A DNA stretch of 64,000 bases from Porphyromonadaceae bacterium H1 (lineage in GTDB: Bacteria; Bacteroidota; Bacteroidia; Bacteroidales; Paludibacteraceae). The DNA lies in the NCBI GenBank assembly GCA_001653155.1, contig BDEJ01000001.1, positions 1 through 64,000 on the forward strand. The letters are read 5' to 3'. The notes beneath the pieces were generated by a model. The model saw only the letters and a list, made by a program, of their open reading frames with translations, did not search any database and was not told the origin of the DNA. The position numbers and the translations under genes are program-made. Of this stretch, positions 20,760-29,931 are shown piece after piece (position 1 is the first letter of the stretch; each line of letters starts with the position of its first letter).

Positions 20760-22013
20760 TTAGCGGGATCGTGGAGAGCTTGAATTGCTTCGCGAAGAGT
20801 GACTTTCTCCGGAGCTTCTTCCGCTTGTTGAAGATCTGGGAGAAGACTCCGAGCTGCTCCCTCGTTCCATGTTTCCGCCGGAAGATCGATTGCTTCGTTG
20901 AGAATTATTTTCAAAATTTGTGCCAGAATTTCTCTCGTTGTTGCTCCGGGTTCTCGGACTTACGCTTGAATTTCTCGGCGCTTGTTGATTCATTTCGGAA
21001 GAGCGGCCCGATGAGCTGCTGCGAGGAGACTCGGCTCTTTCCCATTTTTGCTCGTAGGAGTCGCTTCTTGTACTTCTTGTTGAAGATGAGCGAGAAGATG
21101 TTCCGCTTCTACTCCGGTCGTATTGTCCGGAAGAGGAGCTTCCGGAGCCCATTCTCGATTCCGATTTGCTGCTGCGCGAACTCCGATTCATCTCTTCGGA
21201 ATGATTGTGGCTTGATCGTGGAGATGCAGAGTAGCTCCTGCTATCGGAATTCAAGCCGGAAGAGCCGTAGCTACCCGAGCGGAGGTCGCGTGAGTTAATA
21301 GCATTGGAGTTTCGATTCTGGAAAGAAGCCTCGGGACGGCGTGTTTCGTAATCGTTCCGGCTGATGCTGTTGAACATTCTTCGGCCTCTGTCGCTGTAGT
21401 GAACGGTATTGGTGTAGCCGTAGTAATGGTCGTGGTTGATGTAATTGTACACATTTTTTACATAGACATTTACCGGAGTCGGGCGGCGGTAATGGTAGTA
21501 GGCAGGATAGTGCCCCCAATAGTAGGGCGACTGCCAAACTACGTAATACCGGCTCCTGAACATGCGATAGATACGCGGTGTTACTACAAATACCGGTTCT
21601 ATAACATAGTTGACGCCGTATAAGTAAGGACTTCCGATAATCTGCACCCGTATTTTGTTCCAACGCTTCCGTTCTACTACGATACTGGCTACGTCTTGAT
21701 ATACGTTGTCGTCGAGTACTGCCTGAATAACGATTACGTTCATTCTGTTTTCATAGGACTCCACTACCCGCAAGTAATCGATATAGCCATCGTCGTTTAA
21801 ATCCAGGTTGGATAGGTGGTTGTCCGGATTGTTTAATTCTCTCTCAAACTCTTCCAAATTATAAACATTGGAGAATAATGTGGCGACAGCTTCTAAATCG
21901 AGGTTATAGCTTATGTCATGGCTTGTGGTTTCGATGCTGATTCGATTTTGTCCTCCGGCCGCAGCAGCCCCCAGAAGAATGAGGCTTAGTGATAGAATGC
22001 TCTTGAGTTTCAT
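20760..22013 (-). CDS. Exported Tyr-rich protein with long Ser/Arg-rich tail
   Basis: 417 aa. Signal peptide (ILSLSLILLGAAAAGG), then a folded N-terminal region containing DLNDDGYIDYLRV, an EF-hand-like or dockerin-like calcium loop. Next comes a Tyr/Trp-rich segment (RYYVVWQSPYYWGHYP). From about residue 240 to the end the chain is low-complexity, dominated by Ser and Arg with Asn and Gly (SSRSSSTRSTRS and similar), and surely disordered. A similar N-terminal architecture occurs in uncharacterised Bacteroidota envelope proteins. The function is unknown; the basic tail suggests binding to anionic polymers or surfaces. Apparently single-gene. Confidence 0.65.
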   Translation of the reverse strand: MKLKSILSLSLILLGAAAAGGQNRISIETTSHDISYNLDLEAVATLFSNVYNLEEFERELNNPDNHLSNLDLNDDGYIDYLRVVESYENRMNVIVIQAVLDDNVYQDVASIVVERKRWNKIRVQIIGSPYLYGVNYVIEPVFVVTPRIYRMFRSRYYVVWQSPYYWGHYPAYYHYRRPTPVNVYVKNVYNYINHDHYYGYTNTVHYSDRGRRMFNSISRNDYETRRPEASFQNRNSNAINSRDLRSGSYGSSGLNSDSRSYSASPRSSHNHSEEMNRSSRSSKSESRMGSGSSSSGQYDRSRSGTSSRSSSTRSTRSDSYEQKWERAESPRSSSSGRSSEMNQQAPRNSSVSPRTRSNNERNSGTNFENNSQRSNRSSGGNMERGSSSESSPRSSTSGRSSGESHSSRSNSSSPRSR

Positions 22014-22164: not shown

Positions 22165-22902
22165 TTAGGCGAGTAATTCTTTTCCGAAGAAGTTTTCGGC
22201 AGCTTCGAGGGCATCTATTTTTCCTACGTCAATCATGCTGAAATGATCCGGTGTGAATCCTTTTATGCTGTACTTTTCAGCCTGAGACAGGTATAAGTCC
22301 ATGATGGGGAAGCGTTCGGGGAATCCTTCCAACAAATTGAAAATCTTGGGAGAGACAACTTGAATTCCCGAAAAGGCCAGTCTGTGACAGGATGCCACAT
22401 CCTGGAAGCCTGCAGGCTTCACCTCTCCCGTTTCCGTGTGTATCCAAGCTCTTAGACGCTCTTCCGCATCAAAAAGAAGATAGCGCTTCGTCTCACGCGG
22501 GCTGACCAAAAGGGTTGCCAGGCTGTTCTTGTCGTGTTGACGGTAGAATGCTCCGAGGTCCGCGTTGGAAAGAATATCCACATTGTGCAAGAGGATCGCC
22601 TCATCCCCTTGAAGCCAAGTTGCAGCTTTTCGCAGGGCGCCTCCCGTTTCGAGCAGGCAGTCCCGTTCGTCGGATATTCGGATGTCGATGCCAAAAGAAT
22701 CTCGCTCGGCTATAAAACGGATGATTTGATCAGCAAAATGGTGTACGTTTACCACGATGTGCCGAAAGCCCGCAGCTTTCAGTTTCAAGATTAGCTGTTC
22801 GAGCAGTGTTTTCCCGCCAACGGGTATGAGGGCTTTAGGGATGCTGTCGGTCAGCGGTCGGAGGCGGGTTCCAAGTCCGGCAGCAAAGATTAAAGCTTTC
22901 AT
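22165..22902 (-). CDS. Sugar-phosphate nucleotidyltransferase (MurU-like)
   Basis: 245 aa starting at ATG 22902-22900, chosen because it opens directly on the family signature MKALIFAAGLGTRLRPLTD; the longer frame overlaps the upstream gene. This GlgC/RmlA-type nucleotidyltransferase core has the NTP-binding GLGTRLRP loop and a PKALIPVGG motif. The Asp of LLHNVDILS is the expected metal ligand. Its start overlaps the stop of the kinase-RapZ gene by ATGA, so the two proteins are made together. With an AmgK-like kinase as partner, the best reading is uridylylation of N-acetylmuramate-1-phosphate (MurU) in peptidoglycan recycling. Another sugar-1-phosphate is possible. Confidence 0.75.
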   Translation of the reverse strand: MKALIFAAGLGTRLRPLTDSIPKALIPVGGKTLLEQLILKLKAAGFRHIVVNVHHFADQIIRFIAERDSFGIDIRISDERDCLLETGGALRKAATWLQGDEAILLHNVDILSNADLGAFYRQHDKNSLATLLVSPRETKRYLLFDAEERLRAWIHTETGEVKPAGFQDVASCHRLAFSGIQVVSPKIFNLLEGFPERFPIMDLYLSQAEKYSIKGFTPDHFSMIDVGKIDALEAAENFFGKELLA

Positions 22903-24338
22903 GTATTGCGATAGTTGCGGGGAAGAAATATGTTTTCGATGTTTTGTTCGCGATGCACCAGCTGTACTTCTATATCGAATTTGGCGTGTATATGTTCGGC
23001 CATTTTTTGCGCTGAGTAGACGGAGCGGTGTTGCCCGCCGGTACAACCGAAGGCAATCATTAGGCTCGTGAATCCGCGGTCGATGTAACGCTTTACGGAA
23101 GCGTCGGCCAGCGCATAGGCGTGTTGCAGCAAGCTTAGGATTTCGCCATCTTCTTCGAGAAACTGTATTACGTTTTCGTCCAAGCCGGTGAAGTGTGCAT
23201 AACGCTCGTATTTTCCGGGGTTATTAACAGCCCGACAGTCGAATACAAAGCCTCCTCCATTGCCGGAGTCGTCGTTCGGGATGCCTTTTTTATACGAGAA
23301 GCTGTATATTTTTACAACGAGAGGCTTCCGGACGGAGACTTCACGGAATTGCTTCAGCTCGGTCATTTTTGATAATACTTCTCTTAGGTAAGGATATTCT
23401 CTCAAGCCGTCGCGTAAGATGCTGCGGAGGTTTTCGATAGCAAAAGGTATGCTTTGGAGGAAATGAGGCTTTTTCTCGAAATACCCCCTGAAACCGTAGG
23501 CTCCCAAAACCTGCAGAGTCCGGAAAAAGACAAAATGTTTCAGTTGTTTTCGGAAATCCGCCTCATCAACCGGTTTTAACTTTTTCAGGGAACTGAGGTA
23601 AGTTTGCAGGAGTTCCTCTTTTAGCTCCGAGCTGTATTGGGCCTTAGCCTGCCACAGAAAAGAGGCCACATCGTAGTAGACCGGTCCGCGTCGGCCTCCC
23701 TGAAAATCAATGAAATAGGGTTTCTCGTCTTTTATCATTACATTCCGGCTTTGGAAGTCGCGGTAGAGGAAAGCGTCGTGCTGTCCGGCCAGCAACGTGC
23801 GTGAGAATACTCCGAAATCGTTCTCCAAACGATCCTCCTGAAATTCGAGACCGGCCGGTTTCAGAAAGCAGTATTTGAAGTAGTTCAGATCCCATAAGAT
23901 GGAACGTTCGTTAAATTCCGCTTGAGGATAACAGACCGAAAAGTCGAGGCCTTCGGCGCCTCGTATTTGGATGTCGGCCAGTTTTTCGATGGTTTTTTTG
24001 AGCATATTCTTTTCACTCTCGCAAAATACACCTGTTTTCCGGCCTTCGGCGATGTAGTCGAACAGCAAGGTATTTCCCAAATCCTCCTGGATGTAGAAAC
24101 GGTCGTCCTCACTGGCCGCATAAAGCTGTGGAACGGGGAGTCGCTGTTTGTAAAAATGCTTAGCCATAGCCATGAAAGCCCTGTTTTCCTCCACGGAAGT
24201 GCCCTCCACACCGATAACGGAGGTTTTCTCGCCTTGCAGGCGGAAATATTTACGGTTGGAACCCGATGCCGAGAGCTCCGTCTTGGACAAAAGACGGTCA
24301 GCGGTGTATGCCTTGAAAAGTTTCTCTAATTCGTTCAT
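22899..24338 (-). CDS. AmgK-like sugar kinase fused to RapZ C-terminal domain
   Basis: 479 aa, two domains. Residues ~1-330 form an aminoglycoside-phosphotransferase-type kinase. The catalytic loop YRDFQSRNVMI has Asp194 and Asn199, with Tyr in place of the usual His of HxD. The metal-binding FIDFQGGRRGP has Asp211. This set resembles AmgK, which phosphorylates MurNAc/GlcNAc at C1. Residues ~340-479 match the C-terminal domain of RapZ (KIYSFSYKKGIP, GGGFVFDCRAVNNPG, FGCTGGQHRSV, HAKFDIEVQLVHRE). In E. coli this domain senses glucosamine-6-phosphate and steers decay of the GlmZ RNA. The RapZ N-terminal ATPase domain is absent. Start overlaps suggest co-translation with the MurU-like gene downstream. 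A TAAGTTTG -7 box is at 24398-24405. Confidence 0.8.
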   Translation of the reverse strand: MNELEKLFKAYTADRLLSKTELSASGSNRKYFRLQGEKTSVIGVEGTSVEENRAFMAMAKHFYKQRLPVPQLYAASEDDRFYIQEDLGNTLLFDYIAEGRKTGVFCESEKNMLKKTIEKLADIQIRGAEGLDFSVCYPQAEFNERSILWDLNYFKYCFLKPAGLEFQEDRLENDFGVFSRTLLAGQHDAFLYRDFQSRNVMIKDEKPYFIDFQGGRRGPVYYDVASFLWQAKAQYSSELKEELLQTYLSSLKKLKPVDEADFRKQLKHFVFFRTLQVLGAYGFRGYFEKKPHFLQSIPFAIENLRSILRDGLREYPYLREVLSKMTELKQFREVSVRKPLVVKIYSFSYKKGIPNDDSGNGGGFVFDCRAVNNPGKYERYAHFTGLDENVIQFLEEDGEILSLLQHAYALADASVKRYIDRGFTSLMIAFGCTGGQHRSVYSAQKMAEHIHAKFDIEVQLVHREQNIENIFLPRNYRNT

Positions 24339-25557: not shown

Positions 25558-28500
25558 TTATCGATACTCATCCCAACTTTTTATTTTTATATCGGCTAAT
25601 GACATAGAACAGAAGGCATGGATGAAGGCGCTTGCCAATCGGGCATTGGTTAACAGCGGGATGTTGAAGTCAATGGCCATGCGTCGGATCGTATAGTCGT
25701 TTTCCAGTTCTCGGTTGCTGTTATCTTTCGGAATGTTGATGACGAGGTCGAATTTTTTCTCCGAAATCATTTCTTTTACATTCAAATCGCCTTTTTCGTC
25801 GGGCCATTGTACCGCTGTACTTTTTATTCCGTTATCTTGCAGGAATTTTTGTGTCCCTCGTGTAGCATAGAGTTCGTAACCTTTTTCCTGCAACAAGTGG
25901 CAGGCATCAAGCAGATCGACTTTCGATTTCGTTTGTCCGGAAGATATGAGTATGGTTTTCCGGGGTATGCGGTAGCCTACCGATAGCAAAGACTTGAGAA
26001 TGGCTTCGGAAAAGTCATCGCCGATACAACCCACTTCACCTGTTGAGGCCATATCTACCCCTAATACGGGATCGGCCTGTTGCAGACGGGCAAAGGAGAA
26101 TTGAGAGGCCTTGATGCCTACATAATCCAAGTCGAAGGCTGATTTTTCGGGCCTTTCTATCGGGATTCCCAGCATTATTTTTGTCGCCAGCTCAATCAGG
26201 TTGATTTTGAGTACTTTGGATACGAAGGGGAAGCTTCGCGATGAGCGTAAGTTACATTCTATCACCTTGATGTAGTTGTCTTTGGCCAGAAACTGTATGT
26301 TGAAAGGACCCGATATTTGCAGGGATTTGGCAATTTCGCGGGCGATATTTTTGATGCGCCGGATGGTTTCCACATAAATCTTTTGTGGAGGGAATTGTGT
26401 CGTGGCATCGCCCGAGTGTACGCCTGCAAACTCCACATGTTCGGAAATGGCATAGGCTACGATATCGCCTTTTTCGGCCACGGCGTCTATTTCTATTTCC
26501 TTACAGCGTTCGATAAACTCCGATATCACTACGGGGTGTTTTTTCGATACCTCGGTTGCCAGTTTTAAAAAATTCTCGAGTTGCGATTTGTCGTGACATA
26601 CGTTCATTGCAGCACCTGAAAGCACATAGGATGGGCGCACAAGAACGGGGAAGCCAATGCGGTCGACAAATTCATTGACATCGTCGAATGTTGTCAACTC
26701 CTTCCAGCGTGGTTGGTCAATACCCAAGCGGTCGAGCATCGAAGAGAATTTATGGCGATCCTCAGCCATGTCGATGTGCTGAGCCTGAGTCCCTAAAATT
26801 CGTACCTGAGCATCGGCTAATTTCAGTGCGAGGTTGTTGGGTATTTGTCCGCCCGTAGAAACGATTGTCCCCATTGGGTTTTCCATTTCGAGGATGTCCA
26901 TGACGCGCTCGAAACTCAATTCGTCGAAATAAAGCCGGTCACACATGTCGTAGTCGGTCGATACGGTTTCCGGATTGTAATTAATCATCACCGAGCGGAG
27001 TCCTTCTTTACGAATGGTGTTCAAGGCATTGACTCCACACCAGTCAAACTCAACCGAAGATCCGATGCGATAAGCTCCCGATCCGAGTACAACGACAGAA
27101 CGATGATCCCCCAGATACTTCACGTCGTTTGTGCAGCCGTTATAGGTCAGGTAGAGGTAGTTGGTTTGCGCCGGGTATTCACCGGCCAATGTGTCGATTT
27201 GTTTTACTACGGGCAAAATACCCCGGCTCTTGCGGTAAGAGCGGGTTTCTTTTATGGCTTCGTCGATGAGGTCGTTGCTGCATTTTTTTACCAGACGAGT
27301 CAGCTGGAAGTCGGAGAATCCACATTTTTTGGCTTCGCGGAGTAATTCGTCGGGTAAGGTTTCGAGGCTGTTGTAGCTCTCCAGCTCGTGCTCCATCTCT
27401 ACAATGTGCTTCAACTTGTAGAGAAACCATCGGTCTATCTTGGTAAGTTCGTAGAGTCGTTCGATGGAATAGCCTTTGTGGAGGGCATTAGCCAGATAAA
27501 ATATCCGTCGGTCGGTGGGCTTAGCCAAAGCGCTGTCCAGATCGGCAACGGCAAAGTCTTTGTTTGCTACGAAGCCGTGCATGCCCAAGCCAATCATCCG
27601 GAGACTTTTCTGGATGACTTCTTCGAAACTCCGGCCGATGGCCATGATCTCGCCTACGGACTTCATGCTGCTTCCCAGTAAACGGGATACGCCTTGGAAC
27701 TTACCCAAATCCCAGCGAGGCACCTTGCAGACAACATAGTCGAGCGCCGGCTCGAAGAAGGCAGTGGTAGTCTTCGTTACCGAGTTTTTCAATTCGGGTA
27801 ATCCGTATCCCAAGCCCAATTTGGCAGCAACGAAAGCCAGCGGATAACCTGTTGCTTTGGAGGCCAGAGCCGACGAGCGGCTTAGGCGGGCGTTTACTTC
27901 AATCACCCGATAGTCTTCCGAGATGGGATCAAAAGCGTATTGTACGTTGCACTCGCCCACGATGCCGATATGGCGAATGATGCGGATGGCCAATTCGCGG
28001 AGGCAGTGGTACTCGTCGTTTGTGAGTGTCTGAGAGGGAGCCACTACAATACTTTCGCCGGTGTGTATGCCCAGAGGGTCGAAATTCTCCATGTTGCATA
28101 CCGTGATGCAGTTGTCGTACTTGTCGCGCATCACCTCGTATTCAATCTCTTTCCAGCCTTTGAGCGATTTTTCTACCAGCACTTGAGGGGAATAGGAGAA
28201 GGCTTTTTCTACCGTTTCTTTTAATTCCCGGTCGTTGTCGCAAAAGCCGCTGCCGAGTCCGCCCAAGGCGTATGCAGCCCGGACGATAACGGGGTAGCCC
28301 AACTCGTTGGCTGCTTTGATGGCATCGTTTAAGTTGGTTACGGCCTCGCTTTTGATGTATTTGACATCTATTTCAGACAGTTTTTGGTTGAATATTTCCC
28401 GGTCTTCGGTGTCGATAATGGCCTGTACGGGAGTCCCTAAAACGCGTACTCCGTATTTTTCGAGTACCTTGTTTTTGTAGAGCTCCACACCGCAATTGAG

Positions 28501-29931
28501 CGCCGTTTGTCCCCCGAAAGAAAGGAAAATGCCGTCGGGACGCTCTTTTTCAATTACGCGTTCTACAAAGTCGGGCGTTACGGGTAGGAAGTACACGCTG
28601 TCTGCAATGCCTTCGGATGTTTGTACCGTGGCTATGTTCGGATTAATGAGCACGGTTTGTATGCCTTCTTCTTTTAAGGCTTTCAGAGCCTGCGAACCGG
28701 AATAGTCAAATTCTCCCGCCTCGCCTATTTTTAAAGCTCCCGAACCCAAAACGAGTACTTTTTTGATGTCCCGTATCGAAAAATCGTCGTAGCTGTGTTG
28801 ATTTTTCTGTCTGGATTGTATTTCTTCCTCAATAAGATTTGTTACGGATCGTCTGTCGCCTGCCAACATGCGGATGAAAACGTCGAAGAGCAATTTGGCA
28901 TCGGTAGGCCCTGAGGTGGCTTCGGGGTGGAACTGAGCAGAGAACCAAGGTTGCGTTTTGTGACGGATGCCTTCGTTGGAGCCATCGTTCATGTTTACGA
29001 AGAGGGCTTCCCAATCTTCTCCCAGGCTGTTGTTATCTACAGCGAAACTATGATTTTGCGAAGTAATAAAAGCTCTTTTGCTTCCGGTTAGCTGTACGGG
29101 TTGGTTGTGGCTGCGGTGACCGTATTTCAATTTGTAAGTTTTAGCTCCTCCGGCTGTGGCCAGGAGTTGGTTCCCCATGCAAATACCGAAAATGGGCTTT
29201 CCCGTTTTCATGAAGCGCCGGATGTGTTCGACGGTTTTTTGGCAGTAAGACGGGTCGCCCGGCCCATTGGAAATGAACAGTCCGTCGCAGTCCAGTGTGT
29301 TGAAGTCGTAATCCCAGGGAACGCGTATGACCGTGGTGTCTCGTTGCAACAAGCAGCGTATGATGTTGTGCTTAACGCCGCAATCTACCAATGCGATGCG
29401 GTATTTGCCTGTCCCGTAGTGTATTACTTCGCGACAACTTGCTTTTTCGACTTGATTTTCGCTGTTGGGGTCGCTAAAAGCTATGTCTTCTCCGTCCGGA
29501 AAAACAAGTTTGCCTTTTAGGGTTCCTTTCTCCCGTACAAGCTTGGTGAGGGCCCGGGTATCTACATCGAATATACCCGGAACCTTGTGCTCTTTTAACC
29601 AGTCGTTGAGACTTTTTGCCGCATTCCAATGGCTGTACTCAAAAGAAAAATCGGAAACAATCAAGGCGGAGACTTGAATTTTTTCCGATTCGTAAAATGA
29701 AGAGAGTTGATTTTGGATACTGTCTTCCGGCACGCCGTAATTCCCGATTAAAGGATAGGTGAGACAGAGCATCTGCCCTCGATACGAGGGATCGGTGAGG
29801 CTTTCGGGGTAGCCGACCATGGCGGTGCTGAAAACCACTTCGCCGGCGACGGCTTTTTCGTAGCCGAAGGATTTACCTTTGAAGACCGTCCCGTCTTCCA
29901 ATATCAAATGAAAGGCTTTGAATTGCTGCAT
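25558..29931 (-). CDS. carAB: Fused glutamine-dependent carbamoyl-phosphate synthetase (CarA-CarB)
   Basis: 1457 aa in one uninterrupted frame. Residues 1-~365 are the glutaminase subunit: Cys251 in FGICMGNQL and His335/Glu337 in AQFHPEATS form the triad. The usual GICLGHQ His is Asn here. A ~20-residue linker leads to CarB at ~385 (IRDIKKVLVLGSG). CarB then runs ~1070 residues, the normal length of the free subunit: two ATP-grasp halves (VEKSLKGWKEIEYEVMRD; second half beginning VVVLGSGAYRIGSSVEFDW) and a C-terminal MGS-type allosteric domain (KTILISSGQTKSKVDLLD). It makes carbamoyl phosphate for pyrimidine and arginine synthesis. In most bacteria these are two genes; the fusion recalls eukaryotic CPSases. 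Confidence 0.93.
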   Translation of the reverse strand: MQQFKAFHLILEDGTVFKGKSFGYEKAVAGEVVFSTAMVGYPESLTDPSYRGQMLCLTYPLIGNYGVPEDSIQNQLSSFYESEKIQVSALIVSDFSFEYSHWNAAKSLNDWLKEHKVPGIFDVDTRALTKLVREKGTLKGKLVFPDGEDIAFSDPNSENQVEKASCREVIHYGTGKYRIALVDCGVKHNIIRCLLQRDTTVIRVPWDYDFNTLDCDGLFISNGPGDPSYCQKTVEHIRRFMKTGKPIFGICMGNQLLATAGGAKTYKLKYGHRSHNQPVQLTGSKRAFITSQNHSFAVDNNSLGEDWEALFVNMNDGSNEGIRHKTQPWFSAQFHPEATSGPTDAKLLFDVFIRMLAGDRRSVTNLIEEEIQSRQKNQHSYDDFSIRDIKKVLVLGSGALKIGEAGEFDYSGSQALKALKEEGIQTVLINPNIATVQTSEGIADSVYFLPVTPDFVERVIEKERPDGIFLSFGGQTALNCGVELYKNKVLEKYGVRVLGTPVQAIIDTEDREIFNQKLSEIDVKYIKSEAVTNLNDAIKAANELGYPVIVRAAYALGGLGSGFCDNDRELKETVEKAFSYSPQVLVEKSLKGWKEIEYEVMRDKYDNCITVCNMENFDPLGIHTGESIVVAPSQTLTNDEYHCLRELAIRIIRHIGIVGECNVQYAFDPISEDYRVIEVNARLSRSSALASKATGYPLAFVAAKLGLGYGLPELKNSVTKTTTAFFEPALDYVVCKVPRWDLGKFQGVSRLLGSSMKSVGEIMAIGRSFEEVIQKSLRMIGLGMHGFVANKDFAVADLDSALAKPTDRRIFYLANALHKGYSIERLYELTKIDRWFLYKLKHIVEMEHELESYNSLETLPDELLREAKKCGFSDFQLTRLVKKCSNDLIDEAIKETRSYRKSRGILPVVKQIDTLAGEYPAQTNYLYLTYNGCTNDVKYLGDHRSVVVLGSGAYRIGSSVEFDWCGVNALNTIRKEGLRSVMINYNPETVSTDYDMCDRLYFDELSFERVMDILEMENPMGTIVSTGGQIPNNLALKLADAQVRILGTQAQHIDMAEDRHKFSSMLDRLGIDQPRWKELTTFDDVNEFVDRIGFPVLVRPSYVLSGAAMNVCHDKSQLENFLKLATEVSKKHPVVISEFIERCKEIEIDAVAEKGDIVAYAISEHVEFAGVHSGDATTQFPPQKIYVETIRRIKNIAREIAKSLQISGPFNIQFLAKDNYIKVIECNLRSSRSFPFVSKVLKINLIELATKIMLGIPIERPEKSAFDLDYVGIKASQFSFARLQQADPVLGVDMASTGEVGCIGDDFSEAILKSLLSVGYRIPRKTILISSGQTKSKVDLLDACHLLQEKGYELYATRGTQKFLQDNGIKSTAVQWPDEKGDLNVKEMISEKKFDLVINIPKDNSNRELENDYTIRRMAIDFNIPLLTNARLASAFIHAFCSMSLADIKIKSWDEYR

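Follow-up and report, generated by a model that had tools for sequence, protein, structure and literature searches.

A kinase of the APH fold that resembles AmgK is fused to the C-terminal domain of RapZ in a single protein encoded in the window (the whole 64,000-nucleotide stretch of DNA analyzed here), and its gene overlaps that of a MurU-like nucleotidyltransferase (Table 1). With a probability of about one half, the fusion is a two-domain MurNAc salvage enzyme in which the RapZ pocket, a predicted sensor of amino-sugar phosphate, gates the kinase. The architecture of the protein, the co-occurrence of kinase and C-domain, the adjacency of MurU, the conservation of the pocket and the pattern of MurA loss were all obtained by computation.

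Table 1 Features of the fused gene and its MurU-like partner in the window
Feature	Position in window	Strand	Details
Fused gene	22899..24338	(-)	479 aa, ATG start
Kinase domain (APH fold, AmgK-like)	23364..24338	(-)	Residues 1-325 of the 479-aa protein; motifs R193-D194, N199, D211
RapZ C-terminal domain	22902..23351	(-)	Residues 330-479; pocket C432-T-G-G-Q-H-R438-S439
RapZ C-domain, other pocket or conserved residues			D367, R369, N373-P-G375, H462
RapZ C-domain, conserved insert N-G-G-G			G361-G363 invariant
MurU-like nucleotidyltransferase	22165..22902	(-)	245 aa; start within the ATGA overlap; GLGTRLRP signature

The original prediction described an AmgK-like kinase followed by a complete RapZ C-terminal domain and co-translated with a GLGTRLRP nucleotidyltransferase, and these elements were borne out. 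The N-terminal part of the fusion matched the APH family of Pfam (PF01636, residues 22-253, E 3.8e-15), and the three motif residues that had been named, Asp194, Asn199 and Asp211, were correct and invariant in 67 aligned fusions. Residues 341-465 matched positions 2-120 of the 121 positions of the RapZ C-domain (PF22740, E 2.2e-32), the score of 112.2 bits passing the cut-off of 27. No Pfam match to the N-terminal P-loop ATPase domain of RapZ was found in the fusion; the kinase thus occupies the place of that domain, as had been proposed. The ATGA in which the 479-aa frame stops and the 245-aa frame starts was read directly in the sequence, and the 245-aa protein, in which the GxGxR signature is present, matched the NTP_transferase family (PF00483, E 3.3e-17). 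An assembly or annotation artefact was ruled out, as the same fusion occurred in 37/395 sampled genomes and in 80/80 named relatives (the best 80 of at least 578). Elsewhere on the minus strand of the window, a 1457-aa frame (25558-29931) contains CarA fused to CarB, both chains of the glutamine-dependent carbamoyl-phosphate synthase, and a 417-aa protein rich in Ser, Arg and Asn (20760-22013) has a start that looks by eye like a signal peptide and no Pfam match at 1e-5.

Judged from its sequences, the unit appears to work like AmgK plus MurU, though neither protein reaches the respective NCBIfam cut-offs, and the fusion, in which the ATPase half is missing, is not a RapZ. It shares with AmgK, the anomeric MurNAc/GlcNAc kinase of Pseudomonas, the APH-fold kinase, the catalytic motifs and the operon partner MurU, and differs from it by the additional C-terminal RapZ domain; its scores were 65 of 550 bits for NF045759 and 39.2 of 500 bits for NF045698. 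The 245-aa protein belongs to the same nucleotidyltransferase family as MurU of P. putida (4y7t) and has the same signature. 4y7t was the best PDB match of the MurU-like family profile (E 3.2e-36), and the 245-aa protein scored below the two MurU cut-offs (NF045697, 121.7 of 370 bits; NF045761, 117.9 of 250 bits). The likeness to E. coli RapZ lies in the fold of the C-domain and the sequence of the C-x5-R pocket, whereas the fusion lacks the P-loop ATPase and about half of the RNA-contact residues, has Gly in place of His190 as well as a conserved insert, and missed the RapZ equivalog cut-off (NF003828, 95.9 of 244 bits). The RapZ homologue YvcJ of B. subtilis is likewise among the nearest known counterparts, the pocket comparison covering E. 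coli RapZ.

To determine the distribution of the two domains, 395 Bacteroidota genomes were searched with profiles for the RapZ C-domain and for the kinase. The C-domain was detected in 49 genomes; 37 of these carry it within a 476-530 aa frame, and 12 carry it as a standalone frame of 134-169 aa. All 37 long frames also matched the kinase profile, which places the fusion in about one in ten sampled genomes. Frames of 170-475 aa, a range that takes in the length of a normal RapZ, were found in none of the 49, with the reservation that an ordinary RapZ could be missed too. The domain search matched six of 14 control genomes, with B. subtilis and Bacteroides ihuae unmatched; because B. subtilis has YvcJ, absences of the domain are soft and may be misses. 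A high-scoring kinase was present in 49/49 domain-positive genomes, at E 5.2e-78 or better against 7.7e-47 for the next match; such scores are partly by construction, as the kinase profile was built in part from rows of these genomes. Conversely, the domain was found in 49 of the 50 genomes with a high-scoring kinase; in the exception, G009, a kinase and MurU were present and the domain was undetected. Kinase and domain were fused in 37 genomes, encoded by adjacent genes in eight and unlinked in four. In the eight adjacent cases among the 12 split ones, the kinase gene lay directly upstream of the domain gene on the same strand. The four unlinked kinases and that of G009 were outside the build set of the kinase profile. 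That the two parts are kept together after separation is good evidence for a joint function. In a kinase tree, a split group (f6) nested inside the fused groups, with bootstrap values not fully settled, so the split state there is probably derived. The nearest named relatives were mostly Paludibacter metagenome-assembled genomes, with best-segment identities reaching 76%. At two loci (L111 and L113) with the kinase elsewhere in the genome, the standalone C-domain gene is followed by a transporter-like gene, a major facilitator according to Pfam in the L113 copy.

The linkage to MurU extended well beyond the window. Among the named relatives, which were the best 80 out of at least 578, 62 had a MurU-like gene at most 300 bases downstream of the domain gene and on its strand, as had 37 of the 48 sampled genomes besides that of the window. 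It was unseen within this distance in the remaining 18/80 and 11/48, and some contigs or fetched stretches end at the loci scored as lacking it. When neighbours were clustered, the MurU-like gene was the sole one to recur in most loci (63/80, again the best 80 of at least 578); the second-commonest cluster occurred in 21/80, on mixed strands. Furthermore, a weaker-scoring related kinase without the RapZ domain (family f19) stood beside a NamZ-type exo-N-acetylmuramidase and a sodium symporter in all seven loci read (L136-L142), and a MurU-like gene was called in six of them; the NamZ type was assigned by Pfam on the L136 copy and by similarity on the six others. This clustering makes MurNAc the best guess for the substrate.

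The loss of genes for de novo synthesis provided the strongest independent evidence for a salvage role. Among 371 near-complete genomes (at least 90% complete, at most 5% contaminated), MurA, scored as absent when no match was found at E 1e-40, was missing from five, all of which carry the kinase and the RapZ domain. This corresponds to 5/49 domain-positive against 0/322 domain-negative genomes (Fisher p 3.3e-5, uncorrected for kinship). The five genomes span four families (f5, f36 twice, f42 and f47), and four of them also lack MurB; in the fifth, G180, MurB is present and the kinase sits on a very long branch. MurB was present in both domain-negative genomes searched for it (n=2). Five more genomes without MurA, all of family f19 and all failing the 90% completeness or the 5% contamination limit, carry the kinase without the domain. 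With MurU adjacency, and with loss of MurA, mostly accompanied by MurB, seen among near-complete genomes only where kinase and domain are both kept, the prediction of an AmgK/MurU-type salvage unit gained support. Four near-complete genomes in which MurA and MurB were unmatched (G115, G132, G216 and G267) are, from their gene content, probable MurNAc auxotrophs beyond Tannerella.

The Tannerella connection was approached through the family of G347, which was taken as Tannerellaceae because the fusion of G347 is nearest to named Parabacteroides loci. In this probable Tannerellaceae family, six of 118 genomes lacked MurA, one of them near complete (G427, 99%). G427 lacks both MurA and MurB and keeps the fusion, the overlap with MurU and the CTGGQHR motif, with a single match to the fusion profile at an E limit of 1e-20. 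Among the five incomplete MurA-less genomes of the family, the fusion was found in G399 (in two pieces), G430 and G495, and the fusion profile search did not detect it in G401 and G507, which are 54 and 60% complete. In G415, of the same genus as G427 and 99% complete, MurA was present and the fusion unseen. We infer that G427 is T. forsythia or a near relative, and the AmgK of T. forsythia would then be the fusion. T. forsythia is described in one report as lacking glmS, glmU, murA and murB (PMC5790795), and in another its AmgK and MurU provided the functional positive control of E. coli experiments (PMC13041923).

The window organism itself is differently equipped. MurA, MurB, MurQ and two NagB matches are present in its genome, which measures 2.84 Mb and is 99.87% complete, and the salvage unit would there add to de novo synthesis. 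No GlmS over the cut-off was found in this genome (best E 7e-4). Such absence was seen in eight of 56 genomes searched, all eight, including that of the window, belonging to the window's order. With GlmS missing, the E. coli target of RapZ is absent, and control of GlmS by the C-domain, which the original prediction had drawn from E. coli, found no support in this genome; GlcN6P presumably comes from NagB. AnmK, which makes the MurNAc-6-P that MurQ consumes, was not found in the window genome either. Among the sampled genomes, AnmK occurred in 31/49 domain-positive and 240/346 other ones (Fisher p 0.41), and the domain is thus untied to it. The 49 domain-positive genomes comprise 16 with AnmK and MurQ, 15 with AnmK only, five with MurQ only and 13 with neither. 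AnmK-derived MurNAc-6-P as a universal ligand of the C-domain is therefore weakened.

For the pocket, 130 Bacteroidota domains, including 117 from fusions and one gene counted twice (L100 and L122), were aligned to E. coli RapZ. In E. coli numbering, D182, R184, N188, P189, G200 and H276 were invariant, as were the stretches G246-C247-T248-G249-G250 and H252-R253-S254-V255, and the CX5R pocket was kept in all 130. By contrast with E. coli, the position of the pocket residue H190 was Gly in 130/130, and a short insert with an invariant GGG preceded it by about 10 residues in sequence. Because of this replacement and the conserved insert, the ligand may differ from GlcN6P. As far as the alignment indicates, the anion pocket is kept but remodelled, and about half of the RNA-contact surface is lost.

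Structural models were consistent with these assignments. AlphaFold gave a pLDDT of 91.7 for the whole fusion and 93.4 for the C-domain alone; the pTM of 0.70 for the whole-fusion model leaves the relative placement of the two domains uncertain. The kinase model matched 3csv best (Z 28.3; 304 residues at rmsd 2.9) and also matched the N-acetylhexosamine 1-kinase 4ocj, a GlcNAc 1-kinase (Z 19.5). The C-domain model matched E. coli RapZ (5o5o, Z 19.6; 5o5s, rmsd 1.6 A over 123 residues, 32% identity), which was the only clear match among those listed; the next were a designed ATPase, P-loop kinases and PFK, with Z below 7. In the C-domain model, the CTGGQHRS loop lies between a strand (96-103) and a helix (109-125), and a C-x5-R-[ST] loop between strand and helix is the signature of cysteine phosphatases. 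No CX5R phosphatase fold was found among the matches listed in the C-domain structural searches (50 rows each). Two bifunctional kinase/phosphatases, T4 polynucleotide kinase/phosphatase and PFKFB, were among the matches listed; both aligned through their N-terminal parts, which we take to be their kinase domains.

We infer the substrate, the ligand and the direction of control as follows. The kinase domain would phosphorylate carbon 1 of MurNAc, and possibly also of GlcNAc, and the co-translated MurU-like enzyme would convert MurNAc-1-P into UDP-MurNAc, thereby bypassing MurA and MurB. The CX5R-type pocket of the C-domain would bind a phosphorylated amino sugar, and the domain would thereby direct the kinase to channel MurNAc into the wall or to hold it back, without the RNA-adaptor role of RapZ. 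A sensor explains the retention of the domain under every combination of AnmK and MurQ. Counting against it, the invariant cysteine is, to judge by the alignment, more than a passive phosphate sensor would need.

The cysteine fits more readily with a bifunctional kinase/phosphatase, which we regard as possible, if somewhat doubtful, and which the original prediction had left out of account. Here the C-domain would strip the 6-phosphate from MurNAc-6-P (or from GlcN6P or GlcNAc-6-P) and pass the sugar to the kinase. This is the job of MupP, the MurNAc-6-P phosphatase of Pseudomonas, a HAD enzyme; a catalytic C-domain would share its step while belonging to an unrelated family. Such a reading is favoured by the modelled position of the C-x5-R-S loop, by the invariance of Cys, Arg, Ser, Asp182 and His276 in the 130 sequences, and by the 15 genomes that have AnmK but lack MurQ, in which the MupP step would be filled. 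The literature points the same way. Khan and Gorke (2020) likened the RapZ pocket to the loop of cysteine-dependent tyrosine phosphatases and suggested hydrolysis of GlcN6P (PMC7199280); a later study describes the C247A and C247S variants of E. coli RapZ as inactive and a C-domain crystal with GlcN6P as containing a probably transformed product (PMC9841335); and phosphatase activity has been attributed to the RapZ homologues YvcJ and HpaP, as cited in PMC7525490. C247S may, however, be inactive for a reason other than a loss of catalysis, because the E. coli pocket variants tested lost RNA binding as well (PMC9841335). Against a phosphatase stand the missing tie between the domain and AnmK, the lack of AnmK in the window genome, and the 13 genomes with neither AnmK nor MurQ, a misfit unless MurNAc-6-P has another source or the substrate is GlcN6P or GlcNAc-6-P. 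A futile cycle would presumably also arise where MurQ and the MurNAc 6-kinase act together, and the structural matches listed, while not excluding a CX5R phosphatase, included none. A bolder version, unlikely though conceivable, makes the C-domain of RapZ a cysteine sugar-6-phosphatase with a new type of fold. In this version the Bacteroidota fusion would carry out both steps from MurNAc-6-P (or a different hexosamine-6-P) to MurNAc-1-P on a single chain and would provide the missing MupP step, and E. coli RapZ would be a regulator that either derives from an enzyme of this kind or still works as one.

Two further roles are conceivable for the C-domain. It might merely dimerize or stabilize the kinase, with the pocket as a relic; the E. 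coli C-domain does form dimers by itself, as PMC7073468 and PMC5737377 report, yet a relic is improbable for a pocket unchanged in 130 sequences and a domain retained as an unlinked gene in four genomes. Binding of RNA, with post-transcriptional control of amino-sugar genes as by E. coli RapZ, is very improbable. Seven basic surface residues of RapZ are listed for contact with GlmZ in PMC9841335. In the 117 fusions, K170 (K/R in 116/117), R184 (117/117) and K194 (R/K in 87/117) stay basic, whereas R211, R238 and K251 are replaced in most, R196 is Lys in 44/117, and the tail position K270 holds V or I in 113/117; K281 to K283 lie past the aligned E. coli stretch. Counted between the P-loop and residue 277, the net charge is +5 in E. 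coli but drops to a median of +1, with 0 in the window, and GlmS is missing from the window genome. The RNA-binding tail is, moreover, described as limited to Enterobacteriaceae in PMC7073468, from which it also appears that the E. coli C-domain alone binds GlcN6P. With about half of the RNA-contact residues lost, the alignment gives no support to the RNA binding that had been considered for the C-domain, and gating of the kinase by a predicted amino-sugar phosphate sensor is the reading we prefer.

If this reading holds, a RapZ-type metabolite pocket, known from RNA regulation, would be tied to a metabolic enzyme, and the question of whether that pocket is a sensor or a phosphatase becomes testable in a protein whose enzymatic activity gives a clear signal. 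In Bacteroides, Parabacteroides and their relatives, the fusion would also be the probable MurNAc-1-P kinase, and the reading predicts MurNAc-dependent lineages without MurA and MurB. MurA is the target of fosfomycin. The likeness of the RapZ pocket to a phosphatase loop is already in print. No open-licence PMC paper was found on a kinase-RapZ fusion, nor one in which AmgK and RapZ appear together; the search covered open-licence papers, and the fusion may be described in the subscription literature. In public records of Parabacteroides distasonis and Bacteroides finegoldii, the two gene-named entries among four good matches in a plasmid collection, the fused protein is annotated as 'RNase adapter RapZ', a name that hides the kinase. 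In the P. distasonis record (L158, NZ_OY725790.1, 91859-93289), the partner of the fusion is called only 'nucleotidyltransferase family protein'.
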